From assembly GCF_014201835.1 (NCBI RefSeq), contig NZ_JACHFH010000025.1:1-41647 (forward strand): a stretch of 41,647 nucleotides of DNA, given 5' to 3'. How positions within the stretch are numbered: position 1 is the stretch's first letter; each line of letters opens with the position of its first letter. Position numbers and translations under genes: made by a program. This document shows positions 15,174 through 35,067 of the stretch, in pieces. Source of the DNA: Pectinatus brassicae. GTDB lineage: Bacteria; Bacillota; Negativicutes; Selenomonadales; Selenomonadaceae. Below the pieces are notes generated by a model, which had not been told where the DNA came from, made no database searches, and saw only the letters and a program-made list of their open reading frames with translations.

Positions 15174-15230
15174 GAAAAATAGTTAATGATATAATTATGT
15201 ATATGGTAAGACAGAAGGGAGCATTTGTTA

Positions 15231-15623: not shown

Positions 15624-15695
15624 TATGAATATTTGTGATAGCGGGGTTAATCCTCGACAGTTTTGCATATGTTTATCCTTGTAAAGGTTGAGAAT

Positions 15696-16034: not shown

Positions 16035-16052
16035 AAATATTTTATAAAACAC

Positions 16053-16079
16053 TTAAGTTTTATTATTTGTTGCCGATAT
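16053..16079 (+). promoter_or_regulatory. Sigma-28 promoter of the flagellin gene
   Basis: TTAAGTTT at 16053-16060, an 11-nt spacer, then GCCGATAT at 16072-16079. This fits TAAAGTTT-N11-GCCGATAA with one mismatch in each half and exact spacing. It lies about 120 nt before the flagellin ATG and implies a leader of roughly 110 nt. Confidence 0.8.
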
Positions 16080-16101
16080 TATTAATAGAATTGAAAGTAG
16101 G

Positions 16102-16190
16102 GCAAACTGAGCGATCGGCAGGAGCCTTGCTTTTAAGATAAATATGTCGTCCAGGAAGATGACAATAAAATTAACCAAAATCAGGGAGGA
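16102..16190 (+). promoter_or_regulatory. Flagellin leader with predicted CsrA sites
   Basis: GGC-AGGA-GCC at 16117-16126 folds into a small hairpin presenting AGGA in the loop, extended by GCAA (16102-16105) pairing with TTGC (16127-16130). A second GGA lies in the strong ribosome site CAGGGAGGA at 16182-16190. CsrA typically binds GGA in a loop plus a second GGA at the ribosome site, as shown for Bacillus subtilis hag. Here this is inferred from layout. Confidence 0.55.
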
Positions 16191-16197
16191 ATTTCTC

Positions 16198-17541
16198 ATG
16201 GCTTTAGTAGTAAAAAATAATATGTCAGCTATCAATACGCTGAACATCATGAACAGTAATAATAATGCTTTATCTAAGAGCTTACAAAAAGTATCTTCAG
16301 GTATGAAAATCAATAGTGCAGCTGATAACCCAGCTGGCTATGCAATTTCCGAACGTATGCGTGTTCAGATTCGTTCTTTGGACCAGGATAACCAGAATGC
16401 ACAAAATGGTCAGAATATGTTAAAAACAGCTGAAGGTTCTGTTTCTTCAACAGTTGACATTTTAAAAACTTTAAAAGAAAAAGTTCTTGATGCTGCAAAT
16501 GATACCAATACTACCTTTGACCGTAAAACTATTCAGGATTACCTGAATCAGGCAGTAGACCAAATTAATGATAATGCTAATACCACTTATAATGGTCAGC
16601 TTCTTATTGATGGTTCGAAAAATAAAGCAATTTCTACAGCTTCAACTGTTACTTATACTAATTCAAGCTTGTCTACAGCTACTACTTTTGGTTCAGCTTT
16701 ATCATCATTGTTAGATCGTAATGGTAATTCATTAAATATTTTAAAAGGTGATACCGTTAGTATTTCTTATACAAATAATGGTAAGACAACAACTACCAGT
16801 TTTTCTGTAGGAACTAGCAATTTGACAGATGTATTTAATAATGCAACATCTGGTACTGCTTATAATAAATTTGGCAATAGTGCTTCATTTGGTACTACTT
16901 CTGCTAATAGTGTTATAGGTACAACTGCTGAAGGTTTGACTATGTATACAGCAGATGGCAGTAGTGCACTTTCAATTTCTTCTAATCAAGCTGGTACTGC
17001 AGGTAATATTTCAGGATTTACTATTAGTATCACTGGTACTGATGGTAATGTAAAAAAATCTGTTAACTCAGTACTTGATGCTTGGAGTGAACAAATTAGT
17101 GCGCAGGATAAATCCAATGATAATGCTATTAATATGCAGATTGGTACTAAATCCAGCCAGACTATCCGCGTAGGTCTATCTGATATGCGTGCTAAGGCAC
17201 TTGGTCTTCAGGGTGTATCGACTGATGGTACTGTTCAGAATCTTGATGTTAGTACTCGTGCTAATGCTAATGCAGCTGTCAATGTTCTTGATAATGCTGT
17301 ACAAAAAGCACTTAAAGAACAGACTAAAATCGGTGCTGTTGAAAACCGCTTAGATTACACTCAGAGCAATTTGACAACACAGAGTGAAAACGTACAGGCT
17401 TCCGAATCCACAATTCGTGATGCTAATATGGCTAAAGAAATGACTGAATACACTAAGAACAATGTTCTTATGCAGGCTTCTCAGGCTATGCTTGCTCAGG
17501 CTAACTCCAGTAGCCAGAACGTATTACAGTTATTACAATAA
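16198..17541 (+). CDS. hag: Flagellin
   Basis: A 447-residue flagellin, the filament subunit. The N-terminal D0/D1 region (NNMSAINTLNIMNSNNNALSKSLQKVSSGMKINSAADNPAGYAISERMR) and the C-terminal half (ENRLDYTQSNLTTQSENVQASESTIRDANMAKEMTEYTKNNVLMQASQAMLAQAN...LQLLQ) are conserved. The middle (about residues 140-310) is rich in Ser, Thr, Asn and Gly with no Cys, a likely exposed and O-glycosylated domain. ATG 16198 is chosen because AGGGAGGA lies 8 nt upstream; an in-frame ATG at 16144 would add an unconserved tail. Codons such as GCT, GGT and GTT are frequent, unlike the neighbouring AT-rich glycosylation genes, as expected for high expression. A terminator follows. Confidence 0.97.
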   Translation: MALVVKNNMSAINTLNIMNSNNNALSKSLQKVSSGMKINSAADNPAGYAISERMRVQIRSLDQDNQNAQNGQNMLKTAEGSVSSTVDILKTLKEKVLDAANDTNTTFDRKTIQDYLNQAVDQINDNANTTYNGQLLIDGSKNKAISTASTVTYTNSSLSTATTFGSALSSLLDRNGNSLNILKGDTVSISYTNNGKTTTTSFSVGTSNLTDVFNNATSGTAYNKFGNSASFGTTSANSVIGTTAEGLTMYTADGSSALSISSNQAGTAGNISGFTISITGTDGNVKKSVNSVLDAWSEQISAQDKSNDNAINMQIGTKSSQTIRVGLSDMRAKALGLQGVSTDGTVQNLDVSTRANANAAVNVLDNAVQKALKEQTKIGAVENRLDYTQSNLTTQSENVQASESTIRDANMAKEMTEYTKNNVLMQASQAMLAQANSSSQNVLQLLQ

Positions 17542-17676: not shown

Positions 17677-20484
17677 ATGAAAATTTCAGCTTGTACAATA
17701 GTTAAAAATGAAGAAAAGAATATACAAAGATGGTACGATAATGCCAAACAATATGCGGATGAGATTATTGTAGTGGATACAGGGTCTACGGATAAAACTT
17801 TAGATATTTTAGAAAAATTACCAATACAGTTATATCATTATCAGTGGAAAGATGATTTTGCGGCGGCGAAGAATTTTGCAATAGATAAAGCAACTGGAGA
17901 CTGGATTACATTTTTAGATGCTGATGAATATTTTTCTGAGGAAAGTTTAGCTAAAATACGAAAAGTTATTGAGAAAAATAATATTGAAGATAATATCAAT
18001 ATTATATCGTGTCCTAAAATAAATATTGATATTGATACAGGCAAAGAAATAAGCCGTTTTTATGATATAAGAATTTTTAGCAATGCGAGTAATCTGCGTT
18101 ATACGGGGATAATTCATGAACAATTATTTAATGCAAATGGGAATTTGCAAATTAAAAAAGAAAAAGATATCGTGATTTTTCATACAGGGTATTCAACTAG
18201 TATTGCTAAACAAAAAGCACAGAGAAATCTGAAATTATTGCTAGAAAAAAAATACGAGAATAATGATATAATACCATGGCATTATATCGCCGATTGCTAT
18301 TATGGATTAGGTGAATACAAGAAAGTAATAGAAAGCCTTGATAAATATTTTAATTTAAAAGAGTATACCGTTATAAATAATGAATGCAGCAATTGGCGCA
18401 ATTATATTAATGCAATGTTAAAATTAGAATTACCAAAGGATAAAATACTTAATAAAGTGTTTTCAGCTATAGAAAAATTACCGGAAATACCTGATTTTTA
18501 TGCTTTTGCTGGTATTATTTATTTTGATGAAGGAAAATATTTATTAGCAAAAAAATATTTTAATATGGCAATTGATATTTATAATAATATAGAATTAGAT
18601 ATGGCAGGAAGTAGTTTCTCAGCAGATGTGAATGTAGTAAATAATAAATTATTACAAATAAAAGAATTAATGAAAAATAAATTAACAGTATCTGCCTGTG
18701 TAATAGTTAAAAATAATGAAGAAGATATAAAAAAATGGTTGGAGTCTGTTGAGAAATTTAGTGATGAAATAATTGTAATTGATACTGGTTGTACAGATAA
18801 AACGATTGATATCATTAAAGAAACAGATGCATTAATATATCAATATCAATGGCAGGATGATTTTGCAGCTGCTAAGAATTTTGCGATAGACAAGGCCGAA
18901 GGCAGCTGGATAGTTTTTATGGATTCCGACGAATATATAGAATCAGCGATTGATATTAAAAATATATTAGGGAAAATTATTGATGAAAAAATTGATGCCG
19001 TTTTTTCTCGGATGATAAATATAGATGCTGATAATAATAATGCGGAAATAAACAGATTTTTACAGACAAGAGTATTTCGTAACCATAGAAATATCTATTA
19101 TCAGGGAAGAATACATGAACAGTTATATAAAAATGGGCAGGATTTGCAGCAAGTTGTATGTGAAGATATTATTATCTATCATACTGGATATTCGCAGAAG
19201 CGATATTTGACAAAGATGAAACGTAATCTGAGGTTGTTGCAGGATGATGTAGATAATAATGGCAAAAATAAACGACATTATCGTTATATGGCCGATTGCT
19301 ATTATGCCTTAGGAAATTATAGTAAGGCAATATACTTTTATAACAAACATATTGCATCGGGGTTACAGTCTATAGGTAATGAAAATGATGTATATTATAA
19401 TTTAATTGAGGCAATGCTGCAGGAAAATTATAGTTTACAGGATATATTATTAATACTTGATGTTGCTAGTAAAAAATTTATAGATTATCCACAGTTTTTG
19501 ATGCAATATGGTAAGGTATATTTTTATTTGACAGATTATGAAAAGTCAAAGACATATTTTGAAAAAGCGCTGTTTAACCATAAGAATGTTGTGCAGTCTT
19601 CAGATAATTTTACAGCACTTATACCGAAAATTTATCGTTATTTAGCTAAGATATATTTATATTGGGTTGATTATAATAAAAGCATGTTTTATATAGATAA
19701 GTTATTATTATCAGACAAATACAATATTGAAAATATAAAATGTATGTGCCAAGTGCTGAAACAAATATCATGGCAGGATGCATTGATGTATATAAATAAA
19801 TATTACGCTAATAATTTACAGGACTATTTAAGTCTAATTGATGGAAGTTTTTGGTCAGAAACGCAAGAGATTTTTACTTATTATAATAATAAACTCTATG
19901 AGGAATATGGTATTATTTCAGAAAAATGGCGATTGGGGAATATAATGATGCAAAAAAATAATGAATTTGATAAACTACTGGCACAGGCTAGTGAAAAAAT
20001 AAAAATGATGGTTGTTGCTCTATTGATGTTGAATAAGTTACCGGAAGAATATCATACGATTTTACCTGAAAGTGTTTGGCATTGTTTACAGACATATTAT
20101 GGCAAACAAAATTTGCAATATGAAGATTTCTCTACGTATATGATGTTGTTACCAACAATAATATTAAAAACTAATGATAATATTTTAGGAACATATATTT
20201 TATTAATAAAAGATTTTTCAGTACAAGATAAAAAACAGGCAATAATCGGATTATGTAACTTGAAAAAATGGCAACAGGCATCATTATTATTAACAGAAGA
20301 ACTTGTTAAAGGTAATATAAAGGACAATGAATTAGTATTGAATTTTGCTAAATGTAATTATTATATGAAAAATTGGCAGACAGCTGAAAAATATTTTAAA
20401 GAAATAGCAAAGATAAAAGAATATGAAGCTGAAGCTGATTCTTATCTTACATGGATTGAAGAACGGAGAGCTGGTAAATGGTAA
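17677..20484 (+). CDS. Double GT2 glycosyltransferase with TPR-type helices
   Basis: A 935-residue soluble protein with two GT2 (WaaE/KdtX-type) modules, each followed by helical TPR-like repeats. Module 1 (residues 1 to about 225) has SACTIVKNEEKNIQRW, VDTGSTDKT, DDFAAAKNFAIDKA and the metal motif FLDADEYF. Module 2 (about 335-560) repeats these as SACVIVKNNEEDI, IDTGCTDKT, DDFAAAKNFAIDKA and MDSDEYI. Both have RIHEQL/IIHEQL and an IxYHTGYS/IFHTGYS stretch. The C-terminal 370 residues are helical. No membrane segment or signal is seen. It lies immediately after flagellin and overlaps the next gene by 7 nt. Probable role: sugar transfer onto flagellin (inference). Confidence 0.85.
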   Translation: MKISACTIVKNEEKNIQRWYDNAKQYADEIIVVDTGSTDKTLDILEKLPIQLYHYQWKDDFAAAKNFAIDKATGDWITFLDADEYFSEESLAKIRKVIEKNNIEDNINIISCPKINIDIDTGKEISRFYDIRIFSNASNLRYTGIIHEQLFNANGNLQIKKEKDIVIFHTGYSTSIAKQKAQRNLKLLLEKKYENNDIIPWHYIADCYYGLGEYKKVIESLDKYFNLKEYTVINNECSNWRNYINAMLKLELPKDKILNKVFSAIEKLPEIPDFYAFAGIIYFDEGKYLLAKKYFNMAIDIYNNIELDMAGSSFSADVNVVNNKLLQIKELMKNKLTVSACVIVKNNEEDIKKWLESVEKFSDEIIVIDTGCTDKTIDIIKETDALIYQYQWQDDFAAAKNFAIDKAEGSWIVFMDSDEYIESAIDIKNILGKIIDEKIDAVFSRMINIDADNNNAEINRFLQTRVFRNHRNIYYQGRIHEQLYKNGQDLQQVVCEDIIIYHTGYSQKRYLTKMKRNLRLLQDDVDNNGKNKRHYRYMADCYYALGNYSKAIYFYNKHIASGLQSIGNENDVYYNLIEAMLQENYSLQDILLILDVASKKFIDYPQFLMQYGKVYFYLTDYEKSKTYFEKALFNHKNVVQSSDNFTALIPKIYRYLAKIYLYWVDYNKSMFYIDKLLLSDKYNIENIKCMCQVLKQISWQDALMYINKYYANNLQDYLSLIDGSFWSETQEIFTYYNNKLYEEYGIISEKWRLGNIMMQKNNEFDKLLAQASEKIKMMVVALLMLNKLPEEYHTILPESVWHCLQTYYGKQNLQYEDFSTYMMLLPTIILKTNDNILGTYILLIKDFSVQDKKQAIIGLCNLKKWQQASLLLTEELVKGNIKDNELVLNFAKCNYYMKNWQTAEKYFKEIAKIKEYEAEADSYLTWIEERRAGKW

Positions 20485-22802
20485 AAATATCAGCTTGCGT
20501 GATAGTAAAGAATGAAGAAGAAAATCTGCCTGATTGGTTAAGATGCATGAATGATATTGCTGATGAATTGATAATAGTTGATACAGGATCAACTGATAAT
20601 ACTAAAAAGATTGCCAAGAGTTTTTCAAAAGTAAAATTATATGATTTTACATGGTGTGATGATTTTGCTGCAGCCAAAAATTTTGCTCTTTCTAAGGCTA
20701 CAGGAGATTGGATATTATTTCTTGATGCTGATGAATATTTTAATAAGAAAGATCTGGGCAGAATAAGAGAAAATATCGAAGTTTTAAACAGTAATAATAA
20801 ATTGAAAATAATAATGTTTAATCGCATAAATGTTGATAAACAATCTAATAAAATTCAAGGGGATGCATATATTGTCAGAGGTATAAAAAATGATTCACGA
20901 ATTCGTTATAAGGGAAAAGTTCACGAACAATTGTTTTATAATGATGAAGAAATAACAGATATAGCGGTTATTCCTAATGTAATGCTTTATCATACAGGTT
21001 ATTCGGAAACAATTGTAGAAGATAAATTAAAACGAAATTTGAAAATAATGCAGGAGGATATGAAGTTAAATGGCGAAAATCCTCGCTATTTTGCTTCAAT
21101 GGCAGATTGTTATTATGGCCTAGGCGAATATGAGAATGCAATTATTTGGGCGCATAAGTTTATTGATACAGGTTTGGTGGCATTAGGCAGCGAAAAGCAG
21201 GTATATTATACATTGCTGGCAGCTATGCAAAAAGCGCGATGTTCTTATCAAGAATTAGAAAAATGCTTATTAGAAAGTATAGAAAAATTTCCACAAGATG
21301 AAGTATTACAGCAGGAAAGGCAAGCATTATTAATGAGAAAAAAAGATGTTTTTATTTCAGCATGCGTAATAGTAAAAAATGAAGAAAAAAATATCGAAAA
21401 TTACTTAAAAAGGATTAAATCCATTGCAGATGAGATAATTGTTATAGATACTGGATCTACAGATAATACAATTAAGCTGGCAAAAAATAATGGTGTTTTT
21501 GTACATTCTTTTAAGTGGATTAATGATTTTGCAGCGGCGAAAAATTTTGCCTTGGAGAAGGCTAAAGGAAAGTGGATAATATTTCTCGATGCGGATGAGT
21601 ATTTTAAGTCTGAATGTGTAGAACAATTAGTAAATTATATAAAAAAATATGATATAACGAAAATAGAAGCATTAGCCTGTAAATTTTTAAATATTGATAG
21701 TGATAAAGATAATAAAATTTTAAATACTTTTTATCAGGTGCGAGTATTTCGTAATGACAAAAATATTCGCTACAAAGGACAAATTCATGAGAGATTATAT
21801 AAAAAAAATAATGAAAAAATAAATATTAAAATTTTACCGGAAGATATAGAGGTTATTCATACTGGATATTCTTCCGCAATAATGCAAAAAAAAGCTAAAA
21901 GAAATTTGGAATTATTGCAGAAAGAAATAATTGAAAAAGGTGAGCAATCGCATCATTATTATTATTTGGCAGATTGTTATTTTAGTTTAAGTGATTATGA
22001 AAAAAGTATTTATTATAGTAGAAAATTTATTGATAGTGGGTTGCAAATGATTGGAGTAGAAACCAATGTTTATACAAGATTAATAGATTCATTATCGTTA
22101 GCTAATTATCCTGTAGAAAAAATTTTAGAAGCGGTAGAGTTGGCAATAAAAAAATTTTCAGAAATACCCGATTTTTATTTTATGAAAAGTTTTTTTTTGC
22201 TGCGAGAAAAAAACTATATAGAAGCTGAAAAATATTTGAATATTTGTTTTAAATATTGGCACGTAGCTGATCGTAGAGAATTTGCAATATCAATCATGGA
22301 AAACGTAAGAGAGCAAATTTATTTGGTAGCGGGTATACTAGCTGAAACTAAAGGGCTGGATGCACTGGCTATAAATTTTTATATTAAAGGATTGGAACAG
22401 GATAAATATAATAAAGAAGTTTTGGTACGATTGTATAACTTTTTTTTAAAAAGACCAGTTAAAGTTGTAATAAATATGTTTAATAAATTATATTTATCAG
22501 ATATTAAAGATAGTAAATTTATAATAAATACATTGGATGAATATTATCATGGAGAAGTATATTATTTTTATTACAAAAAAATTAATAAAGTATCAAAATT
22601 AGATGAAGCAGTTGCACAGAAAAATTTTGAATGTGTAGTTGAAAATTTGAAAAATGATTTGGTTAATATATATAAAAAAATAATTTTAAAAAGTATCGAA
22701 GCTGGTAACTCCGATTTAATAAAAACAGCATATGTTATATTGCCTATTCAGTATAGAGTAGTATTGAATAACGCATATAAATTGTTTAAGCAGGTGACTT
22801 AA
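20478..22802 (+). CDS. Double GT2 glycosyltransferase with TPR-type helices, second gene
   Basis: A 774-residue paralogue of the preceding gene, translationally coupled to it by an ATGGTAA overlap. Module 1 (residues 1 to about 225) has SACVIVKNEEENLPDW, VDTGSTDNT, DDFAAAKNFALSKA and FLDADEYF. Module 2 (about 290-515) has SACVIVKNEEKNIENY, IDTGSTDNT, NDFAAAKNFALEKA and FLDADEYF. Both carry the VHEQL/IHERL and YHTGYS-type stretches (IHTGYS in module 2). A TPR-like helical tail of about 250 residues follows. All GT2 hallmark residues look intact in both modules, so both may be active. Substrate and acceptor are unknown. Confidence 0.85.
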   Translation: MVKISACVIVKNEEENLPDWLRCMNDIADELIIVDTGSTDNTKKIAKSFSKVKLYDFTWCDDFAAAKNFALSKATGDWILFLDADEYFNKKDLGRIRENIEVLNSNNKLKIIMFNRINVDKQSNKIQGDAYIVRGIKNDSRIRYKGKVHEQLFYNDEEITDIAVIPNVMLYHTGYSETIVEDKLKRNLKIMQEDMKLNGENPRYFASMADCYYGLGEYENAIIWAHKFIDTGLVALGSEKQVYYTLLAAMQKARCSYQELEKCLLESIEKFPQDEVLQQERQALLMRKKDVFISACVIVKNEEKNIENYLKRIKSIADEIIVIDTGSTDNTIKLAKNNGVFVHSFKWINDFAAAKNFALEKAKGKWIIFLDADEYFKSECVEQLVNYIKKYDITKIEALACKFLNIDSDKDNKILNTFYQVRVFRNDKNIRYKGQIHERLYKKNNEKINIKILPEDIEVIHTGYSSAIMQKKAKRNLELLQKEIIEKGEQSHHYYYLADCYFSLSDYEKSIYYSRKFIDSGLQMIGVETNVYTRLIDSLSLANYPVEKILEAVELAIKKFSEIPDFYFMKSFFLLREKNYIEAEKYLNICFKYWHVADRREFAISIMENVREQIYLVAGILAETKGLDALAINFYIKGLEQDKYNKEVLVRLYNFFLKRPVKVVINMFNKLYLSDIKDSKFIINTLDEYYHGEVYYFYYKKINKVSKLDEAVAQKNFECVVENLKNDLVNIYKKIILKSIEAGNSDLIKTAYVILPIQYRVVLNNAYKLFKQVT

Positions 22803-22804: not shown

Positions 22805-24316
22805 ATGAATATAACAGCGTGTGTAGTAGTAGAAAACAAAGGAAGAACATTAACTAGATGGTTTAAATGTATGAGGCAGATTGCCAATGAAATAGTCATT
22901 ATAAATATAGGTTCTATAGATAATATAAGAGAAATCGCAATGGAGGTTAATGCTAAAGTTTATAGTTTAAAAAATAAGGATGATCTTGCTGCAGCTAAAA
23001 ATTGTGCATTGGATAAAGCGACTGGTGATTGGGTGATATTTCTTGATGACAATGAATATTTTACGGATGAGTCATTAGATATATTGAAAAGAGACATGTT
23101 GGTAGCTGATGATAAGATTGATGGATTTGTATGCAGAAAGAAAAAATATGTAAAATGTGAAGCAATAGATAATTTTTATAAACTATGTGTATTTCGCAAT
23201 AATAGAAATTTATGTTATAAAGGTTGTAGTTATACACAATTAGTAAATGGGTTACAGAAAAAAATAAATATAACAGTATTAGATGATCTAGTTATATATT
23301 ATACTAAGTGTTCATCAAGAGTAATGGCGGAAAAAATACGATATAGTTTAAAGCTATTAAGACAAAATAACGGTGAAACAGCAACTCTTATTCATTTAGT
23401 AGAATGTTATATAGATATAAAGCATTACGATAAAGCAATAAAATGTTGTGAAAAGTTCATTATAAGTAGTAATAATGATAATAATTTGCGAATATATATA
23501 TATAGTAAGTGGTTGGAGATGGTAATTGATATAAAAAGTAATTATGTTGCAGCTCAAAAAGTATTAAAAAATGCAATAAAGGAATTCCCTAATAATGGTG
23601 AAGTACTTTATTTTAAGGCTAAATTATTGTATTTACAGAAAAAATATACAGAGGCCGAACAATGTTTCAAAGAAATATTAGTATTAAAGACGGATAATGA
23701 AAATTTAAATGCAAGTATGCTAGCGGGAAGATATGCCGACATCTATGCTGATTTGGGACGATTGTATGAATTAAAAGGTCAAAATAATAGAGCTATAAAA
23801 AATTATGTTAAATCGTTGCAAATAAATTGTTTTAATAATGACATATTAGTTTATTTATATAGACAGATAAATAAACTGGATGATATCTATAAAATAGAAC
23901 TATTAAATAGCATTTATGACGGTCAAAATAAAATAGGATTTTTATTGAATATGCTGTATAATACTTTGTCAGAAAAAATAAGCTTATATTATAAAAAGAT
24001 GCTGCAGGAAAAATATAATGTTAAATTTCCCTGTAGTATAGCAAATGACTTTTTTATTACAGGTAATATAAAAGGGACTATAAATATGTTGGGATTTGGA
24101 TTGGAAGACACTTATAAATTTTTAGCAGCAGATGCTATTATGAATAAACGGGGAAAAACTCAATTACAAAATAAAATACCAGCTGTCTATAATAATATAG
24201 TAAAAGACTATGATTTGTTGAAGGATATCAAAATAGATACAGATAATAAGAAGAAGTATAGTGATATTAGTGTTATAGTAAAAATGAGTGACAGGGATAA
24301 AAATAATGGAAAATAA
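22805..24316 (+). CDS. Degenerate GT2-like protein with TPR helices (probable pseudoenzyme)
   Basis: A 503-residue protein homologous to the modules upstream but with hallmark positions changed. VKNEE becomes VENKG, VDTGSTD becomes INIGSID, the metal motif DADEYF becomes DDNEYF, HEQL becomes YTQL and YHTGYS becomes YYTKCS. The frame is open and the fold-defining stretch DLAAAKNCALDKATGDW is kept, so this looks like a maintained protein that has lost catalysis, with a TPR-like C-terminal half (around EVLYFKAKLLYLQKKYTEAEQCF). It starts 2 nt after the previous stop and overlaps the next gene. It could be a scaffold or regulatory partner of the active modules, or an early pseudogene. Confidence 0.75.
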   Translation: MNITACVVVENKGRTLTRWFKCMRQIANEIVIINIGSIDNIREIAMEVNAKVYSLKNKDDLAAAKNCALDKATGDWVIFLDDNEYFTDESLDILKRDMLVADDKIDGFVCRKKKYVKCEAIDNFYKLCVFRNNRNLCYKGCSYTQLVNGLQKKINITVLDDLVIYYTKCSSRVMAEKIRYSLKLLRQNNGETATLIHLVECYIDIKHYDKAIKCCEKFIISSNNDNNLRIYIYSKWLEMVIDIKSNYVAAQKVLKNAIKEFPNNGEVLYFKAKLLYLQKKYTEAEQCFKEILVLKTDNENLNASMLAGRYADIYADLGRLYELKGQNNRAIKNYVKSLQINCFNNDILVYLYRQINKLDDIYKIELLNSIYDGQNKIGFLLNMLYNTLSEKISLYYKKMLQEKYNVKFPCSIANDFFITGNIKGTINMLGFGLEDTYKFLAADAIMNKRGKTQLQNKIPAVYNNIVKDYDLLKDIKIDTDNKKKYSDISVIVKMSDRDKNNGK

Positions 24317-27300
24317 TAATATTAAAATATATAGAAAAAATTTGAATGAAGCATCACAAAAAGCAGATTTTAAAGAAATATTAACAATTTCCTTAAAAAT
24401 ATTAGAAATACTACCAAATGATTATCAGGCATTATTAAGTATTGCTAAGGTTTATATTACATCAGCTAAAGAAAAAACAGCGCTAAAAATATTTAAACGA
24501 TTGATAGCTCTCTATGGCGATAAAGATTGGGATATTATGTATTATCTGGCTCGGGCCCAATATCAAATGACTGAGACCATGGGGGATGTAGAACCAGTAA
24601 AAAAATTGCTGCAAATTCCTAAATTGACTAAGTATCAAAAAGAACAGACATATGATTTATTTAAACGACACTATATACTAACAGGTGATACGGGATTGGC
24701 TTTAAAATATAATAAAAGATGTATTGAATATAGTACTGATATAGATAAGAAACATGATGAATATACAAATTATTTGTTTAATCTGCACTATTTACATAAT
24801 ATAAAAGCAGAACATTTATATAAAGAACATAAGAAGTTCAATAATCTTTTTAGTGACATACCACAGTATGAACATAAAATGGAGCGTACTGGAAAAAAGA
24901 AAAAAATAAGAATTGGCTATATCTCACCAGACTTTCATAAACATGCTGTAGTATTATTTGTTTATCATATGCTTAATAAATATGATGAAAAGTATTTTGA
25001 GGTTTATTGTTATGCCAAATGCGATGAAGATGATATCAGCCGACAAATAAAATCATATGTGGATAAATGGACAAATATATTAGGAATGTCAGATAAAAAC
25101 ACAGCTGACTGCATTTATAATGATAAAATCGATATATTATTCGATTTAGCAGGTCATACTAAGGGAAATTCACTTGCAGTTATGGCAAGAAAACCAGCGC
25201 CTATTCAAATATGTGGCATTGGTTATTTTAATACTACAGGGTTAAAAGCAATGGATTACTTTTTGACGGATGTATTTTGCGATGAGCCAGGTAAGAATGA
25301 TAAATATTTTACAGAGCAGCTTTTATACATGCCACATTCTCATTTTGGCTATACAGCAGTTGATATGTCATGGAAACCTAAAGATGCCGCCTGCTTGAAA
25401 AATAATTATATTACATTTGGCAGTATGAATTTTTTTACAAAAGTAAATTCGCAGGTAATAAAAGTGTGGCAGAGTATTTTAGATAAGGTACCAAAGTCAC
25501 GTTTGTTATTAAAAGATCGTACGGTAATGACACCAGTTGTTTTGGCGAAAATAAAAAAACGCTGGCAAAAAGCTGGACTTGATTTAAATCGGGTTGATTT
25601 TGAAATTGCTACACCTGATTATTTTAAGTCATATTATAAAATAGACATAGCACTTGATACATTTCCTTATCCCGGTGGAGCAACTACTTGCGATGCGCTT
25701 TACATGGGCGTGCCGGTAATTACATTAAAAGGTCAGCGGCATGGAGCTAGATTTGGCTATAGTCTTCTTAAAAATATTGGCAGCATTGATGACTGTATCG
25801 CTTATTCATTAGAAGATTATGTTAATAAAGCTGTGCGATTGGCAAATAATTATCAGCGCATAAATTATTTGCATTTAACATTGCGGGAAAAAATGCAGCT
25901 ATCACCAATAATGAATGGCTATCTATATATGCAAAATCTGGAAAAAAAATATATTGAAATCTGGGAAAAATATACAGGCATTGAATTTAAAATAAATAGA
26001 GAGGATAAAATTCGTTCTGCTGAAATATATCGTCAAAGTATGCAACATAAACAAGAAATTAATATATTAAAACAACTTAATAATGATAAAAAATTTTATT
26101 CGAATATGGCAGAAGGGTATACTGGACTAGGTGATACTAAAAAAGCAGCTAAATATTATTTATTAGCAAGTAATAGTGTGAATGATATAGATGAAAAAAG
26201 GAAAAATTATAGTGCGTATCTTTTTAAATTATTATTTTATAAAAATGATATATTAAAAATAGTTGCCACACACAAAGCCTATCAGCAATTTTTTACTGAT
26301 GTAAAAAAAATGCCAGTAAAAAAAAGTAATAATGATAAAATTCGTATTGCTTATATTTCCAGCGATTTTCGACAAAATGTAATGTTTTCTTTTTATCAGG
26401 CAATGTTTAACAAATATGATAAAGGAAAATTTGAAGTTACATGTTATTGTCTTAATAAAGAAGATGTTTTTACTGAACAAATAAAAAATAAAGTAGATAG
26501 TTGGAAAAACTTATTTAAAGTTGATATTTTGAGAGCAGCAAAAATAATTAATAATGATAATAATGATATATTATTTGATTTATCTAGTCATACAGCAAAA
26601 AACATTTTGTCGATTTTAGCATATAAACCGGTAGGAATACAAATATCAGGATTAGGTTACATGGGACCGATTGGGCTTGATGCAATTGATTATTATTTAT
26701 CGGATAGGTACATTTGTCCGAATGAAAATGAAAAATATTTACCAGAAAAACAAATAAAAATGAAACAAAGTGTATTTTGTTATACAGCAAAACCGGATTT
26801 GCCAGAAAGTATTGGTGCACCGTGTGAAAAGAATAATTATATAACTTTCGGTTCATTTAATAATATAAATAAAATTACTGATGAGGTATTACAGACATGG
26901 AATAAAATATTGCAGGCAGTTCCAAATTCCATTCTTGTATTAAAAGATCATTCATTTATAAGTCTTGATACTAGGATTGAATTTCAGAAACGGTTAGAAA
27001 ATTTAATGATTGACCAGCAGAGGATATATTTGGAATGTGCTGATTCTTTTTATATGCAGCGGTATCTTGAAATGGATATAGCACTGGACACATTTCCCTA
27101 TAACGGGGGCGGAACTACTTGTGATGCACTTTATATGGGAGTACCGGTCATTTCACTAGTAGGCAATAATTATGTATCACGCATGGGAAATAGTATTTTG
27201 AATAATCTTAATTTAGGTGAATTAATAGCAGAAAATATTACAGAATATGTTCAGAAAGCGATAAATTTAGTTAATGATGTTGAGTTAGTAAACCTTTTAC

Positions 27301-27416
27301 ACAAAAATTTACGGATAATAATGCAAAGATCCCCGTTAATGAATGAAAAAAAATATATACAAGAATTAGAAGAAAAATATATCCAGATCTTAAAAAGTAG
27401 AAAAGTAGAAAAGTAG
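24306..27416 (+). CDS. Tandem GT41 (O-GlcNAc transferase-like) protein with TPRs
   Basis: A 1036-residue cytosolic-type protein with an N-terminal TPR-like region and two complete OGT/SPINDLY-type (GT41) modules. Module 1 (about 202-560) has IRIGYISPDFHKHAV, including the His expected at the active site, APIQICGIGYFNTTG and DTFPYPGGATTCDALYMGVPVITL. After more TPR-like helices, module 2 (about 679-1030) has IRIAYISSDFRQNVM, where that His is Asn, GIQISGLGYMGPIG and DTFPYNGGGTTCDALYMGVPVISL. GT41 enzymes add sugars to Ser/Thr of cytosolic proteins, and some modify flagellin. ATG 24306 is preferred over the in-frame GTG 24288, with AGGGA upstream; it overlaps the previous gene by 11 nt. Best candidate for initiating flagellin O-glycosylation. 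Confidence 0.88.
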   Translation: MENNNIKIYRKNLNEASQKADFKEILTISLKILEILPNDYQALLSIAKVYITSAKEKTALKIFKRLIALYGDKDWDIMYYLARAQYQMTETMGDVEPVKKLLQIPKLTKYQKEQTYDLFKRHYILTGDTGLALKYNKRCIEYSTDIDKKHDEYTNYLFNLHYLHNIKAEHLYKEHKKFNNLFSDIPQYEHKMERTGKKKKIRIGYISPDFHKHAVVLFVYHMLNKYDEKYFEVYCYAKCDEDDISRQIKSYVDKWTNILGMSDKNTADCIYNDKIDILFDLAGHTKGNSLAVMARKPAPIQICGIGYFNTTGLKAMDYFLTDVFCDEPGKNDKYFTEQLLYMPHSHFGYTAVDMSWKPKDAACLKNNYITFGSMNFFTKVNSQVIKVWQSILDKVPKSRLLLKDRTVMTPVVLAKIKKRWQKAGLDLNRVDFEIATPDYFKSYYKIDIALDTFPYPGGATTCDALYMGVPVITLKGQRHGARFGYSLLKNIGSIDDCIAYSLEDYVNKAVRLANNYQRINYLHLTLREKMQLSPIMNGYLYMQNLEKKYIEIWEKYTGIEFKINREDKIRSAEIYRQSMQHKQEINILKQLNNDKKFYSNMAEGYTGLGDTKKAAKYYLLASNSVNDIDEKRKNYSAYLFKLLFYKNDILKIVATHKAYQQFFTDVKKMPVKKSNNDKIRIAYISSDFRQNVMFSFYQAMFNKYDKGKFEVTCYCLNKEDVFTEQIKNKVDSWKNLFKVDILRAAKIINNDNNDILFDLSSHTAKNILSILAYKPVGIQISGLGYMGPIGLDAIDYYLSDRYICPNENEKYLPEKQIKMKQSVFCYTAKPDLPESIGAPCEKNNYITFGSFNNINKITDEVLQTWNKILQAVPNSILVLKDHSFISLDTRIEFQKRLENLMIDQQRIYLECADSFYMQRYLEMDIALDTFPYNGGGTTCDALYMGVPVISLVGNNYVSRMGNSILNNLNLGELIAENITEYVQKAINLVNDVELVNLLHKNLRIIMQRSPLMNEKKYIQELEEKYIQILKSRKVEK

Positions 27417-27528
27417 ATTTAGTTGTAGTAGGAGCTATAAAAAGGTAATTATATATTCTATCTAGAATATATACAAGTATTATATGTCAAATTGAAGGAA
27501 AATAAAAAAATACAAGGACGGTAATAGT

Positions 27529-28581: not shown

Positions 28582-30663
28582 ATGCGAAAAACAAAAACCA
28601 GCATTATTATATTAACATATAACAAATTAGAATATACAAAGCTTTGTATTAATAGTATAAGGTATTATACTGCAGGTAATGATTATGAGATAATTGTGAT
28701 TGATAATGGTTCTACAGATAATACCGCAGAATGGTTAAAACAACAAAACGATATAATTAGTATTTGTAATAAAGCTAATAAGGGTTTTTCAGGTGGTTGT
28801 AATCAAGGAATAAAAATTGCAACAGGGACGGAAATATTGCTTTTAAATAATGATACAATTGTAGTTCCAAATTGGCTTAGTAATTTAAAAAAAGCATTAT
28901 ATAGTTCAAATAAAATAGGTGCTGTAGGACCAGTAAGTAATAATTGCACTAATTGGCAAACAATTGAAGTAGAGTACAATAGTAATAATTTATCGGAAAT
29001 AGTGGAATTTGGCAAAGCATATAATTGTATAAGTGATAACACAAGGTGGTATTTGAAAGTTAAATTAGTTGGTTATTGTATGTTAATAAAAAAAGAAGTA
29101 ATTGATAAAATAGGTTTACTGGATGAACAATTTTTCCCAGGTAATTTTGAAGATGATGATTATTCTTTACGCATTTTGCAAGCTGACTATAAACTTTTGC
29201 AATGTAGTGATACATTTATTCATCATTTTGGAAATATATCATTCAAGGACAATGATGAGATTTTTAGGAAAAATTTATTAGATAATCATAAGAGGTTTGT
29301 TGAAAAATGGAAAATTAATGCAGTATATTCTAGTCGAGATGATGACATATTGGACAATTTAAATATCAACCCACAGACAAGATTATTAGAAGTGGAATGT
29401 TCATGTGGAGCATGGTTAGCGGAAGTTAAAAGAGTTAGTCCAACAACTAATGTATATGGGATTGATATAAATAAAAATTCAGTTGACATAGCAAGAAAAA
29501 TATTTCCTATAACTTGTGGAGATATTGAAACAATGGAATTACCATATAATGAAAAGTTTTTTGATTATATTATTTTGCAAAATGTATTACCACGTATAAA
29601 AAATCCAATAAAGTTATTAAAAAAATTAGCAAGGTATATAAAAGATGATGGACTAATAGTATTAAGTTGTTATAACTTTATGCATTATAGTAATATAGAA
29701 AAAATTTTATCAGGAAAACTTGATTATGAGGATAATCTTTGGGAAGGAGCATTTGCTGAAAATAATATACGGGTTTTTAATTTAAATATGTTACGTACAA
29801 TAGTTAAAAAAAGTAATTTGCAAATATCTTTTTGTGTAGCACCAGTGAAAGAATCTATGGATAAAAATATTAATAATAATTTAGTAGAAAATATATTAAA
29901 AAGTCAGTTAGTATCAGGAAAATCTGAATGGGAATTAAAAGCATATAAATATATTATGCATTTAAAAAAGAAAAATTTATCAAATGTGGGTAAGAGAAAG
30001 TTAAATAATAAAAAAATAGAGTTTATTACATGTGTTAATAATATAAAGGAATATGAACTTTGCGTAAAATGCATTCGAAATTTAAAAATACCGTCAGATT
30101 ATAATGTTGAGATAACGCCAGTACTAAATGCTTCATCTATGGCGCAAGGATATAATAAAGGAATGCTTAAAAGTGATGCTAAATATAAAGTTTACTTGCA
30201 TCAGGATGTGCGAATTATAAATAAAAACTTTATATATGATATATTGCGGTTGTTTAACAAATCATCAAAGATTGGATTGATAGGTGTTGTTGGTGCAAAA
30301 AAAATACCTGACAATGGTGTTTGGTGGGAAGCAAAGGAACGTTATGGATGTTTAATTCATAACCCTGGAGGAGTATTATTTGAAGATCGGTTTGAAGAAC
30401 AGCAAATGACTGGAGAATATGAGGAAGTACAAGCTATTGATGGGAATCTTATGATAACACAATATGATATTTATTGGCGTGAAGATTTATTTAAGGGATG
30501 GCACTTTTATGATACGTCGCAATCAATGGAATTCGCAAAAAAAGGATATACTGTAATAGTACCTAATATAATGGAACCATGGAATATTCATGAATGTGGT
30601 ATAAATCCGATGAATGGATACGATATTGATCGGGAGATATTAGTAAAAGAATATGAATTATAA
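28582..30663 (+). CDS. GT2 - methyltransferase - StrF-type glycosyltransferase fusion
   Basis: A 693-residue protein with three domains. Residues 1 to about 230 are a rhamnosyltransferase-type GT2 domain (TSIIILTYNKLEYTKLCINSI, VIDNGSTDNT, LLLNNDTIV, DDYSLRILQADY). Residues about 260-380 resemble a SAM-dependent methyltransferase, with a weak motif I (LEVECSCGAW) followed by YGIDINKNSVDIA. Residues about 476-690 are a StrF/Glyco_tranf_2_5-like domain (YKVYLHQDVRI, WREDLFKGWHFYD, IMEPWNIHECG). The enzyme may add and modify sugars in one chain. GGAG at about 28571 precedes ATG 28582. The next gene has the same domains in another order. Confidence 0.82.
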   Translation: MRKTKTSIIILTYNKLEYTKLCINSIRYYTAGNDYEIIVIDNGSTDNTAEWLKQQNDIISICNKANKGFSGGCNQGIKIATGTEILLLNNDTIVVPNWLSNLKKALYSSNKIGAVGPVSNNCTNWQTIEVEYNSNNLSEIVEFGKAYNCISDNTRWYLKVKLVGYCMLIKKEVIDKIGLLDEQFFPGNFEDDDYSLRILQADYKLLQCSDTFIHHFGNISFKDNDEIFRKNLLDNHKRFVEKWKINAVYSSRDDDILDNLNINPQTRLLEVECSCGAWLAEVKRVSPTTNVYGIDINKNSVDIARKIFPITCGDIETMELPYNEKFFDYIILQNVLPRIKNPIKLLKKLARYIKDDGLIVLSCYNFMHYSNIEKILSGKLDYEDNLWEGAFAENNIRVFNLNMLRTIVKKSNLQISFCVAPVKESMDKNINNNLVENILKSQLVSGKSEWELKAYKYIMHLKKKNLSNVGKRKLNNKKIEFITCVNNIKEYELCVKCIRNLKIPSDYNVEITPVLNASSMAQGYNKGMLKSDAKYKVYLHQDVRIINKNFIYDILRLFNKSSKIGLIGVVGAKKIPDNGVWWEAKERYGCLIHNPGGVLFEDRFEEQQMTGEYEEVQAIDGNLMITQYDIYWREDLFKGWHFYDTSQSMEFAKKGYTVIVPNIMEPWNIHECGINPMNGYDIDREILVKEYEL

Positions 30664-30725
30664 CGATAAAAATAGTTAGTAAAAAATATAGCATGTAATT
30701 AATTTACATAAAGGGTGGATATTAA

Positions 30726-33029
30726 GTGAAAAAAATTTCTTTTATTATTTATAAGAAAAATGATATAAAGTATAAAAAATTAATTATTTCTTTATCGTTT
30801 TTAAATATTCCTGATAATGTTTTTGTTAATGTTGTTACATTAACAGGGGAGGGATCTATTGCATCAATATATAATGAAGGAATAAATGTTTCTAAGGATG
30901 CTGATTATAGAATTTATGTGGATGAAAATATAAAAATATTAGAGAAAAATTTAATTAGTAAAGTAGTTGGAATTTTCGATAATGATTCTAAGATTGGGAT
31001 TATGGGATGTATTGGGACAACAGCGATTTCATTAACAGGTGGTTTTTTAGAAAAAAGTGGAAAAGTTAAAATAAATGAAAATGAAAAAATATATGATGAA
31101 TTTCTTGAAAAATATAAAGAAGTAATCGCTGTAAGTGGAGTATTAATGGTTACACGTGGTAATATTTTATGGAGAGAAGATCTATTTAAGGGAAATGGAT
31201 TTTGGGATATTGCGCAATGCATAGAGTATAAACGTAGCGGATATAAAATAGTTATACCACAACAAAATAATTGTTGGATTCAGACTGATGAAATAAAAAC
31301 TAATATTGAAGAAAAAAGTAGGAAAGAATTTTTAGATGAATATTCAAAAGATATATTTCCACTTGTAACTGTAATAATCCCTACATACAATAGGCCTAAA
31401 TACTTTAAAATTGCACTTGATAGTGTAATAAATCAAACATATAAGAATTTAGATATTTTTATTACTGATAACAGTACAAATAATTTAACAGAAGATTTAA
31501 TGAATGAATATTTAGCTAGGGATAAGAGAATAAAATATATTCATCATAAGAATTATGCTGCAATAGATAACTGGAACTGTGCGAGAAAATATAATAATCC
31601 TAAAGCCGAATATGTGAATTGGCTTATGGATGATGATGTTTTTCACCCTAAAAAAATAGAAATAATGATGGGATATTATTTAAATAATAATGGGATAAGT
31701 TTAGTAACATCATATCGTAAACGAATAGATAAAGATGGAAATGAGATTAGAGATATCGAAACTACTAAGCAATTGAGTAATGTTCTAAAAAGATATAATG
31801 GGATAAGTGTAGGCAGGATGATTTTATGTAATTTTGATAATATCATTGGAGAACCAACAACTGTGTTAATAAAAAAGAAATTTTTAAAAAATAATAATTT
31901 GGGATGGGAAAAAGATGCGGGAAAATATAATGTGCCTGATTTTCCAACGTGGCTTAATTTACTTAGTAAAGGTGATATGATATATATTCCAGAGGCACTA
32001 AGTTATTTTCGTTGTCATGCAGGGCAGAGACAATTCCAGCCAATGGTACAAATATATTGCATAATATGTTGGTTAATACAAGCTCAGTATGCAATAAATA
32101 ATAGAATATTTTTGTTGGAAGAAAAAGATATTCGAACAACATTATTTACCGGCACGATGTTTGTCATTAATGGATTGAAAATTTTAGAAAATATAAATGA
32201 GTATAGAACTGAAAGGGAAATGTTGGAGAATATATTACAAAGCATAGGGAATGCTTTTTTTAATGGATATATTTTAGATTTTAGCATAGATATTAATAAT
32301 GAAGAACAAAAAAAATGTGCATGTTGTGGACAAAGGGTAGAAGAATATTTGCCACTACCTGATTATTATTTAGAACAATATAAGAAATATAATGTAACGG
32401 CCAAAGTGAGACCAGAAATGCTGAATAAATATGCATATACTTGTCCGAAATGCGGTGCTACTGATAGGGAACGCGCATATGCGGCTTGGATGATAAGAGA
32501 AATTCCATCAAATAAAAAAATTAGAATATTAGACATAGCACCAGTAAGATCTTTACAGAAATTTATATTAAAAAATTATCCATTGGCAGAATATCGAACA
32601 GGAGATTTTTTAAGAGATGATGTTGATTATAAATTAGATATTATGAATATGTATCAGATAGAGGATGAAAGTATTGATTTCTTTATTTGTTCGCATGTAT
32701 TGGAACATGTGAGTGATGATTTAAAGGCTATGAGAGAATTTAAACGAATACTGAAAAAAGATGGAAAAGGTATTTTGGTAGCACCGATAAATTTAAACCA
32801 AAAACATATTGAAGAGGATCCAGACTGTACAGATGTTGGAGAACGTTGGCGAAGATTTGGGCAAGAGGATCATATAAGAAGGTATTCAAAACAGGGCTAT
32901 ATGGAAAGATTGAAGATGGCAGGATTGGAAGTACAGGAGTATACAAAGAAAGATTTTGGTAGAAAAGTAATGCAAGAAAATGATCTATCTGATACATCAA
33001 CTATTTATATAGTAGGGAAAGGCAAATAA
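30726..33029 (+). CDS. StrF-type - GT2 - methyltransferase fusion (reordered relative of the preceding gene)
   Basis: A 767-residue protein using the same three domain types as the gene before it, in a different order. Residues 1 to about 200 are StrF-like, with WREDLFKGNGFWDI kept but the metal-binding HQDV changed to VDEN. Residues about 210-440 are a GT2 domain (VTVIIPTYNRPKYFKIALDSV, TDNST, WLMDDDVF) with intact DxD. Residues about 530-580 carry CACCG and CPKCG, a likely zinc site. Residues about 600-765 are a methyltransferase (ILDIAPVRSLQKFI, FFICSHVLEHVSDDLKAM). Start GTG 30726 follows GGGTGG. The TAA overlaps the next ATG by one base. Confidence 0.82.
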   Translation: MKKISFIIYKKNDIKYKKLIISLSFLNIPDNVFVNVVTLTGEGSIASIYNEGINVSKDADYRIYVDENIKILEKNLISKVVGIFDNDSKIGIMGCIGTTAISLTGGFLEKSGKVKINENEKIYDEFLEKYKEVIAVSGVLMVTRGNILWREDLFKGNGFWDIAQCIEYKRSGYKIVIPQQNNCWIQTDEIKTNIEEKSRKEFLDEYSKDIFPLVTVIIPTYNRPKYFKIALDSVINQTYKNLDIFITDNSTNNLTEDLMNEYLARDKRIKYIHHKNYAAIDNWNCARKYNNPKAEYVNWLMDDDVFHPKKIEIMMGYYLNNNGISLVTSYRKRIDKDGNEIRDIETTKQLSNVLKRYNGISVGRMILCNFDNIIGEPTTVLIKKKFLKNNNLGWEKDAGKYNVPDFPTWLNLLSKGDMIYIPEALSYFRCHAGQRQFQPMVQIYCIICWLIQAQYAINNRIFLLEEKDIRTTLFTGTMFVINGLKILENINEYRTEREMLENILQSIGNAFFNGYILDFSIDINNEEQKKCACCGQRVEEYLPLPDYYLEQYKKYNVTAKVRPEMLNKYAYTCPKCGATDRERAYAAWMIREIPSNKKIRILDIAPVRSLQKFILKNYPLAEYRTGDFLRDDVDYKLDIMNMYQIEDESIDFFICSHVLEHVSDDLKAMREFKRILKKDGKGILVAPINLNQKHIEEDPDCTDVGERWRRFGQEDHIRRYSKQGYMERLKMAGLEVQEYTKKDFGRKVMQENDLSDTSTIYIVGKGK

Positions 33030-34138
33030 TGGAAAAATTAAAGCAACCTACATATGTTACAAGAGCGTTTTTGCCACCAATAGAAGAATATGAAAAATAC
33101 CTACATACAATTTGGGAAAAACATTGGTTAACAAATAACGGAGAATTGCATAAAAATCTAGAAAAAGCATTAACAAATTATTTAGGTGTAAAAAATGTTA
33201 CATTATTTGTAAATGGACATTCAGCGTTAGATGTGGCAATAAAAGCATTAAAACTTAAAGGTGAAGTTATAACGACACCATATACATTTGTTTCGACTAC
33301 GCATGCAATTGTCACAAATAATTTAAAACCTGTTTTTTGTGATATAAAAATGTCGGATTATACAATTGATGAAGAGCAAATAGAAAAACTGATTACACCT
33401 AAAACATCAGCAATCATTGCAGTACATGTATATGGATATCCATGTAATGTAGATCAAATAGCAAAAATAGCTGATAAATATAATTTAAAAGTTATATATG
33501 ATGCAGCTCATGCTTTTGGCGTTAATGTAAATGGAGTTCCTATTGGCAATTTTGGTGATGTATCAATGATGTCATTTCATGCCACCAAAGTTTTCAATAC
33601 AATTGAAGGCGGTGCTCTATTATATAAAAATGATATATATAAACGAGAATTTGAGCTATATAAAAATTTTGGAATTACAGGGCAGGAAACAGTTGAAGCA
33701 GTAGGTGAAAATGCCAAAATGAATGAATTTCAGGCAGCAATGGGATTAGTTAACTTAAATTATGTAGATAAAGAAATAGAAAAACGTAAAAAAATAACAG
33801 ATATTTATGTAGATAAATTAAAGAAAATTTCCGGAATAAAAGTGATTGATATTAAGTTTGAAGGGCATAATTATGCCTATTTCCCGATATTAGTTGATGA
33901 GACTAAATATGGTAAGACAAGAAATAATTTATTTGAACAGCTCAAACAATATAATATATTTGCCAGAAAATATTTTTATCCATTAACATGTGATAGTCAG
34001 TGTTTTTTAGAACAATATAAGAATGTGTTATTACCTGTAGCTAGATATGTAAGCGATAGAATATTAACATTACCAATTTATGGTGATTTATCTGAAGATA
34101 TAGTTTTAAATATTTGTGAAATAATAGAGCAAAATTAA
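33029..34138 (+). CDS. DegT/DnrJ/EryC1/StrS family sugar aminotransferase
   Basis: A 369-residue PLP-dependent aminotransferase that makes amino sugars from nucleotide-activated keto-sugars. Visible features are VNGHSALDVAIKAL (PLP phosphate region), YGYPCNVDQI, YDAAHAFGV and the Schiff-base Lys187 in SFHATKVFNTIEGGA. It resembles enzymes that make 4-amino-4,6-dideoxy sugars (VioA/DesI-like), but the exact substrate cannot be told. It overlaps the previous gene by one base and is followed after 29 nt by cysD. No nucleotide-sugar synthase or dehydratase is in the window, so the substrate pathway must lie elsewhere. Confidence 0.9.
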   Translation: MEKLKQPTYVTRAFLPPIEEYEKYLHTIWEKHWLTNNGELHKNLEKALTNYLGVKNVTLFVNGHSALDVAIKALKLKGEVITTPYTFVSTTHAIVTNNLKPVFCDIKMSDYTIDEEQIEKLITPKTSAIIAVHVYGYPCNVDQIAKIADKYNLKVIYDAAHAFGVNVNGVPIGNFGDVSMMSFHATKVFNTIEGGALLYKNDIYKREFELYKNFGITGQETVEAVGENAKMNEFQAAMGLVNLNYVDKEIEKRKKITDIYVDKLKKISGIKVIDIKFEGHNYAYFPILVDETKYGKTRNNLFEQLKQYNIFARKYFYPLTCDSQCFLEQYKNVLLPVARYVSDRILTLPIYGDLSEDIVLNICEIIEQN

Positions 34139-34167
34139 AAATAATATTTATTTAGGGAGACTTTTTT

Positions 34168-35067
34168 ATGAAACAATTATCGCATTTAGATAAATTAGAA
34201 GCAGAAGCAATTTATATAATGCGAGAAGTAGCAGCAGAATGTGAAAATCCTGTGATGCTGTATTCCATAGGAAAGGACAGTTCTGTAATGCTTCATCTGG
34301 CATTAAAGGCGTTTTATCCAGAAAAACCACCATTTCCTTTTTTACATATAGATACAACATGGAAATTTAAGGAAATGATAAAATTTCGTGATACAACTAT
34401 GCAAAAATTAGGTCTTAATTTATTAGTTTATACAAATGAAGATGGTGTAAAAAAAGGAATAAATCCTTTTGACCATGGAGCTGCTTATACAGATATCATG
34501 AAAACGCAGGCTTTAAAAGAAGCTTTAAACAAATATAAATTTACGGCGGCTTTCGGTGGTGGTCGGCGTGATGAAGAAAAATCTCGGGCGAAAGAGCGTA
34601 TTTTTTCATTCCGTAATGAATCACAAAGCTGGGATCCCAAAAATCAAAGACCGGAAATGTGGAAATTATATAATACTAAAATTAATAAGGGCGAAAGTAT
34701 GCGGGTATTTCCTCTTTCTAATTGGACAGAAAAAGACATTTGGCAATACATACAAAGAGAAAATATAGAAATTGTATCATTATATTTTGCTAAAGAACGG
34801 CCTGTTGTTATAAGAGATGATAATATTATTATGGTCGATGATGAGCGTATGCGTTTCTTGCCGGGAGAAAAAGTCCAAATGAAAAAAGTTCGATTTAGAA
34901 CATTAGGCTGCTATCCATTGACTGGGGGCGTAGAATCTGATGCCGATACACTCGATGCTATAGTAGATGAAACTTTAGGCGCTGTATCTTCGGAACGAAC
35001 CAGCAGAGTAATAGATCATGAAGCAGCAGGAAGTATGGAACGTCGTAAAAGAGAGGGATACTTTTAA
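34168..35067 (+). CDS. cysD: Sulfate adenylyltransferase subunit 2
   Basis: A 299-residue CysD, the catalytic subunit of the ATP sulfurylase that makes adenosine 5'-phosphosulfate (APS). The PP-loop [10 protein letters not shown] spans residues 33-42, and the [34 protein letters not shown] and ATP-binding C-terminal regions match the family. Normal length. The stop overlaps the cysNC ATG by one base. No cysH or sulfite reductase gene is in the window, and an apparent sulfotransferase lies downstream, so this copy may serve sulfation rather than assimilation, as NodP does in rhizobia (inference). Confidence 0.96.

Follow-up and report, generated by a model that had tools for sequence, protein, structure and literature searches.

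Introduction

Among solved structures, the nearest sequence relative of the protein described here is Arabidopsis SPINDLY (SPY), a GT41 protein O-fucosyltransferase in which helical repeats precede one GT41 domain. Its SPDFxxH motif ends in a histidine, H495, equivalent to H558 of human OGT (hOGT); the H495A and H495F variants are dead and D491A is active (PMC9715652). The role of this His in GT41 is disputed, and the SPY authors now prefer the alpha-phosphate of the donor over any residue as the base (PMC9715652). They also argue that the residue at SPY Y744, C917 in hOGT, sets the size of the pocket and disfavours GlcNAc (PMC9715652). In OGT, H558F is cited as inactive with a donor affinity like that of the wild type, and the Drosophila variant DmOGT H596F had a measured activity of 3.0% (PMC4703063), while hOGT H558A reduced Nup62 glycosylation and left HCF-1 cleavage full (PMC4840301). 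We found no Asn mutant of this His in the accessible portions of the GT41 mutagenesis literature.

The bacterial counterpart that probably does the same kind of job is Caulobacter FlmG, whose TPR part binds flagellin and whose C-terminal GT part is needed for flagellin modification (PMC7591256). The gene described here lies near flagellin and flagellar genes; its product has modelled helical repeats, none of which scores above cut-off as a Pfam TPR. FlmG differs in having 596 residues and one GT domain, in its sugar, pseudaminic acid, and in having no second, altered module. The Caulobacter vibrioides control genome contains a PF13844 match, a result that applies at the level of the genome only. 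By titles and abstract openings, we found no description of tandem or pseudo GT41 proteins in the bacteria considered below in the open-licence literature.

Here, we describe a tandem GT41 protein of Pectinatus brassicae, encoded in the window, by which we mean the whole stretch of DNA analysed (41,647 nucleotides; GCF_014201835.1, contig NZ_JACHFH010000025.1, positions 1-41,647, forward strand). Our preferred reading, to which we give a little short of an even chance, is that its second module is a crippled, non-catalytic half with an intact donor lobe, belonging to a SPINDLY-like flagellin glycosyltransferase whose first module works, within a locus that has been reduced.

Architecture of the Tandem Protein

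The tandem gene (24306-27416, + strand, as are all of its parts given below) encodes 1036 amino acids in a frame that is open from a GTG at 24288 or an ATG at 24306, with its stop at 27416. The original prediction placed two GT41 modules in one chain at these coordinates, and both the ORF and Pfam confirm it. Glyco_transf_41 (PF13844) matched the whole chain in four stretches with E = 5.2e-89 and 299.4 bits (cut-off 25), and a profile search of the bacterium's own genome assigned two of them to each module, each of the four above the cut-off. Aligned over 354 positions, the two modules share 45% identity, far above chance.

From the ORF, Pfam and an AlphaFold2 model, the chain consists of two GT41 modules, each preceded by helical repeats. 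The N-terminal repeats span residues 1-195 (24306-24890), with modelled helices at 2-182; at E <= 0.01, Pfam yields no TPR match there. Module 1 follows at residues 196-560 (24891-25985) and is separated from module 2 (residues 673-1036, 26322-27413) by a helical block of residues 561-672 (25986-26321), with modelled helices at 565-663. This block is the quickest-evolving section of the chain, and its TPR_7 match in Pfam, at 599-622, is weak and under the cut-off. We call the repeats TPR-like, a name that follows their predicted helices; no Pfam TPR match rises above the cut-off.

The model, computed from an alignment of 33 multi-module chains, has a mean pLDDT of 89.6 and a pTM of 0.71, and places the repeats, a GT-B module, the second helical block and a second GT-B module in succession. 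In VIA-align, residues 539-1034 of this predicted model superpose on SPY bound to GDP-fucose (8dti_A) with Z 45.8 and an rmsd of 2.0 Å over 473 residues, giving module 2 a SPY-like catalytic fold in the model, and residues 31-560 superpose on 5djs_A with Z 42.8 and an rmsd of 3.9 Å over 512 residues. Four SPY rows with higher Z span both modules, at an rmsd of ~19-20 Å. Folded alone from its single sequence, module 2 reached a pLDDT of 39.1, which is unusable.

The protein had been called OGT-like. Human and Drosophila OGT have the GT41 fold of the window protein and counterparts of its His (H558/H596), Lys (K842/K872) and Asp (D925/D955); the human enzyme differs at C917, which is Tyr in both modules (Tyr455 and Tyr932), as in SPY. 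SPY is the nearest solved relative of both modules (E 1.1e-70 for module 1 and 8.6e-69 for module 2), heads the fold comparisons, and has its Y744 and K665 matched by Tyr and Lys in both. It differs in having one GT41 domain where the window chain has two, the second of them without H495. Furthermore, of the residues Y744, S496 and T748 that mark the O-fucosyltransferase, neither module has the last two: S496 is replaced by Ala or Val in the two modules, and T748 by Ala or Gly. With Tyr at the C917 position, GlcNAc is an unlikely donor on the SPY authors' argument; with S496 and T748 also missing, we replace 'OGT-like' by 'SPINDLY-like' and leave the donor unassigned.

Active-Site Residues in the Two Modules

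Module 1 carries the motif SPDFHKH exactly (residues 207-213, 24924-24944), and its H213 corresponds to SPY H495 and hOGT H558. At the same place, module 2 reads SSDFRQN (residues 685-691, 26358-26378), with Asn691 in place of the His, encoded by AAT at 26376-26378. Both motifs are exactly as first noted, and the accompanying claim that the altered His matters in OGT enzymes agrees with the behaviour of SPY H495A/F, hOGT H558F and DmOGT H596F described above. The essential Lys, SPY K665 or hOGT K842, has a counterpart in each module, K379 (25440-25442) and K856 (26871-26873). Of the two residues by which we judged an active transferase, module 1 thus has both, and module 2 has the Lys with N691 at the position of the His.

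The donor region is present twice. In module 1, it covers residues 449-470 (25650-25715) and includes Y455, equivalent to SPY Y744, and D463; in module 2, it is kept as DTFPYNGGGTTCDALYMGVP (27087-27146). The original reading that module 2 retains DTFPY...TTCDALYMGVP is borne out, together with K856, Y932 and D940. We then compared both modules with 39 near-invariant columns, defined by a conservation of 95% or more across the 237 modules with both the His and the essential Lys, a choice of set that by itself fixes the His and Lys columns. Module 1 breaks none of the 39. Three are broken in module 2, namely those of the His, of the GHT-motif Gly, replaced by S761 (26586-26588) in the sequence SSHT, and of an Ala, replaced by V776. 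With a boundary between columns 139 and 173 that we set ourselves, all three fall in the N-lobe (3/16, or 2/15 with the His column excluded) and none in the C-lobe (0/23).

An assembly or sequencing error at Asn691, with His as the true residue, is a further explanation to consider, as the two codons are one base apart and the analysis covered a single assembly of the species. We regard such an error as very improbable: the second N-lobe change from Gly to Ser and the Lys-to-Gln change adjacent to the Asn argue for real divergence, and Asn recurs at this position among relatives.

On a wider scale of 74 columns conserved in last modules (reference: 76 last modules with His and Lys), window module 2 breaks 10, more than any of the 76 reference modules. 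The module 2 of P. haikarae breaks 9/75 and that of P. cerevisiiphilus 7/75, and last modules with eroded donor sites break 12-16/74. Judged from these residues, window module 2 appears deviant, not wrecked.

GT41 Modules across the Selenomonadaceae

Two GT41 modules in one chain had been thought unusual. This does not hold within the Selenomonadaceae, where at least 25 of the 40 genomes with fetched loci, the bacterium's own included, have a chain of two or more full GT41 modules. Two- and three-module chains of Selenomonas, Anaerovibrio, Quinella, Megamonas and Pectinatus have the same architecture as the window protein. Among the matches listed, GT41 occurs in 43 of 60 relatives, and the fetched loci of the 40 genomes, window included, yield 103 complete GT41 ORFs, with one full module in 74 cases, two in 21, three in seven and none in one. 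We therefore rejected rarity of tandem GT41 proteins as a description of this family; it is GT41 itself that is rare in the phylum, as a phylum-wide draw gave a match in only 2/119 genomes, one of them the window's own.

In a tree of 142 rows, from which 10 module fragments with fewer than 280 filled columns had been dropped (the same filter was applied to the pooled set), the two window modules fall in separate deep groups. Module 2 belongs to a group of 32 rows (98% SH-aLRT by the quick method) made up of 23 last, eight single and one mid module. The chain therefore appears to have joined old paralogues and not to stem from a recent duplication.

Of 291 distinct modules, two that are gapped at the His position were set aside; among the rest, His was present in 242/289 modules (two of which are the solved references SPY and 5DJS) and lost in 47/289. 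On a FastTree tree built with the motif columns excluded, parsimony counts 15 changes of the His state, one Fitch reading being 14 losses and one regain. Twenty-four of the His-less modules keep their donor residues, with Asn in 15, Gly in five, Gln in two, and Ser and Thr in one each. Asn appears at separate places of the tree: in the window, in Selenomonas (L137, L141 and L143 with the single gene L052), in a group of 14 rows and in L084. Loss of the His thus recurs in Selenomonadaceae GT41 modules, often towards Asn and with the donor residues kept.

The original prediction had assigned the loss of the His to the second module; as a trait of second modules as such, the loss is not supported, for the His is retained in 77/98 distinct last modules and, as described below, in both Pectinatus orthologues. 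In 92 chains, His stands in both end modules in 68, in the first only in 20, and the reverse is found in two. The pooled set does suggest an asymmetry (21/98 last modules without His vs. 3/95 first modules; Fisher p 1.2e-4), and so do the 79 named loci (0/78 first vs. 19/80 last), which had been selected with donor-motif patterns and sorted by their similarity to the window protein (best 80 of 196). However, in the set of 60 relatives, which was not chosen by pattern, the His is lost from 3/29 first and 4/31 last modules among the matches listed. Because the pattern-picked loci show the asymmetry and the pattern-free set does not, we claim recurrence and make no claim that His loss is concentrated in last modules.

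The 14-row group consists of single-module genes, none with the His (Asn in nine, Gly in four, Thr in one) and all with the Lys (14/14); the Gly of GHT is Val in 10/14, recalling the Gly-to-Ser change of the window. Ten of the 14 start at, or inside, the end of a tandem GT41 gene (loci of the group: L165, L164, L175, L186, L187, L189, L191, L158, L180, L097 and L046). A further observation concerns L084 (2130-13441, genome G030), where four consecutive two-module GT41 ORFs have degenerate first modules, with the Lys changed in three of four, and second modules in which the checked residues are kept, bar one His changed to Asn.

These data bear on the idea that module 2 is still active, with Asn691 as a structural stand-in and the donor phosphate as base, and that it adds a second sugar or serves other sites. 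If the phosphate acts as the SPY authors favour, Asn might do, and the 23/23 near-invariant C-lobe columns that module 2 keeps would suit a working enzyme. The recurrence of Asn in separate places points the same way, as do the 17/24 His-less, donor-intact modules with Asn or Gln, though nine of the 15 Asn come from one related group and the preference for Asn was spotted post hoc. In Selenomonas, the last modules that carry Asn depart from no more than 1-4/74 conserved columns (8/74 in L052). Nevertheless, Ala and Phe at this His kill SPY (PMC9715652), and Phe leaves DmOGT the residual activity given above (PMC4703063); window module 2 has also lost the GHT Gly, and with its 10/74 it is more deviant than the modules of the two congeners. 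We consider an active module 2 unlikely, if worth keeping in mind.

The Pectinatus Congeners and a Probably Reduced Locus

Among the matches listed for four genomes of the same genus, a tandem orthologue occurs in two and a single-module GT41 gene in another, and the fourth has no GT41 match. The tandem orthologues, in P. haikarae and P. cerevisiiphilus, are 59-60% identical to the window protein and differ from it in keeping both His residues: their module 2 reads SADFRKH. By parsimony, His was probably the ancestral state of module 2.

The congeners also differ in what stands next to the tandem gene. In both, it is directly followed by a third, single-module GT41 gene of 560 and 578 amino acids (L117 11125-12807 and L118 11095-12831). 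The corresponding place in the window is a gap (27417-27528, + strand); the third gene is absent from the window downstream of the tandem gene, and the next window gene is the orthologue, about 50% identical, of the congeners' TPR gene. The third GT41 gene was probably lost in the window species, not gained in the congeners.

Directly before the tandem gene lies a GT2-TPR protein (22805-24316, + strand) with broken GT2 motifs: DTGS has become NIGS, DAD has become DDN and HTGY has become YTKC, all of which are intact in both congeners. Its Pfam GT2 score is 46 bits, vs. 68-69 in the congeners, and it is 36-38% identical to its congener orthologues, which are 60% identical to each other. On these motifs, 22805-24316 looks like a second in-frame pseudo-transferase adjoining the tandem one. 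Several transferase functions of the locus seem to have been lost jointly, in two cases with the reading frame preserved, and the change of the His would accompany a wider shrinkage of the glycosylation gene cluster in the window species.

We also compared rates, taking the ratio of dN between window and congeners to dN between the congeners; with three orthologues and saturated dS, this ratio has little power. It is 2.06 for the linker with module 2, 1.91 for the repeats with module 1 and 2.14 for the degenerate GT2 protein, and 1.52-1.93 for four other genes of the locus, with a fifth at 1.08 on 203 aligned sites. These ratios, from three sequences with saturated dS, give no sign of a burst after the loss of the His. 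Relaxed selection in the window lineage was considered and dropped, as the ratios give no clear sign of it, and the saturation of dS precludes a claim on dN/dS. In each of the three Pectinatus species, the rate of module 2 is about double that of module 1.

Module 2 could then be a relic that drifts without function in a simplifying locus and is carried along by its in-frame fusion to an essential module 1. The missing third GT41 gene, the GT2 protein with its lost motifs and low identity, and the higher rate of module 2 in three species would all fit such a relic, and full decay is found in other last modules (10/98 lack both the His and the Lys). Conversely, the donor lobe is untouched, the ORF has neither frameshift nor stop, and the window lineage shows no clear acceleration (2.06 vs. 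1.91); the fast rate of module 2 extends to the comparison of P. haikarae with P. cerevisiiphilus, both of which keep the His, where dN is 0.223 for module 2 and 0.092 for module 1. A functionless relic is, in our judgement, about as unlikely as an active module 2.

A Proposed Non-Catalytic Half within a Probable Flagellin Glycosyltransferase

In the explanation we prefer, that of a crippled but retained module 2, the protein would be a SPINDLY-like GT41 glycosyltransferase of the cytoplasm that probably acts on flagellin, with module 1 as the working transferase. Module 2 would have lost efficient transfer to Ser/Thr through the change from His to Asn691, together with that from Gly to Ser761 in the same N-lobe; we infer this loss of transfer by analogy, from the literature on the equivalent residue. 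Because hOGT H558A is only reduced in activity and DmOGT H596F retains 3.0%, 'crippled' is a safer word than 'dead'. As a folded, non-catalytic half, module 2 may have been kept to bind acceptor or nucleotide sugar on behalf of module 1, or to hold the complex together, and its change would be part of a reduction of the locus at the level of the species, together with the missing third GT41 gene and the degenerate neighbouring GT2 protein.

The proposal draws on the importance of the equivalent residue in SPY and OGT, the intact donor lobe, the predicted fold, the His of the congeners, the lack of any burst of change and the seemingly reduced locus. A precedent exists in the 24 His-less, donor-intact modules (Asn in 15), among them the 14 single-module genes that retain the Lys. 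Against it, the 10/74 broken columns of module 2 also fit slow decay.

A broader and rather speculative idea, which we think unlikely to hold as it stands, is that flagellin-type loci of the Selenomonadaceae repeatedly evolve GT41 half-enzymes, a distinct functional class with a constrained C-lobe and the His changed to Asn, Gln or Gly. If true, half-enzymes would be acceptor clamps gated by nucleotide sugar or transferases with altered chemistry, serving both as the second half of tandems and as stand-alone partner genes, and the change of the GHT Gly to Ser or Val in the window and most of the 14-gene group would accompany that of the His. For the dispute over the His itself, it matters that other residues, often Asn, have taken its place several times in domains that are well preserved elsewhere, and the Pectinatus species with and without it form close natural pairs for a direct test of its role. 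The tandem GT41 enzymes of flagellin loci may thus carry non-catalytic modules, a concept like that of other enzyme/pseudo-enzyme pairs.

The Flagellar Neighbourhood

The genes for FlgK, FliD and flagellin lie within 7376-17541, followed by the transferase genes. The flagellin (16144-17541, + strand; Flagellin_N and Flagellin_C) is the presumed acceptor of the tandem GT41 protein, to judge from this gene order, with flagellin, FlgK and FliD upstream.

Between the flagellin and GT2-TPR genes, 17677-22802 encodes two more tandem transferases, each with two GT2 modules per chain, whose best NCBIfam match, the SunS peptide S-glycosyltransferase, is well under the cut-off; doubled modules are a recurrent feature of the transferases in this locus. 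Farther downstream, 28582-33029 encodes two long chains that combine GT2, methyltransferase and Glyco_tranf_2_5 domains and are perhaps multi-step glycan enzymes. Within the same glycosylation locus, 33029-36917 encodes a DegT-type aminotransferase, a PAPS-reductase-family protein and a GTPase-APS kinase fusion; the last two are, by our reading, a CysD and CysN/CysC-like pair, and these genes hint at amino- or sulfo-sugars.

Apart from the tandem gene, the search of the bacterium's own genome gave one GT41 gene (G000:C58:6061-7644, L036). It encodes one module of 568 amino acids with the His kept, and in the tree it is sister to the single GT41 gene of another congener (G004, L039).
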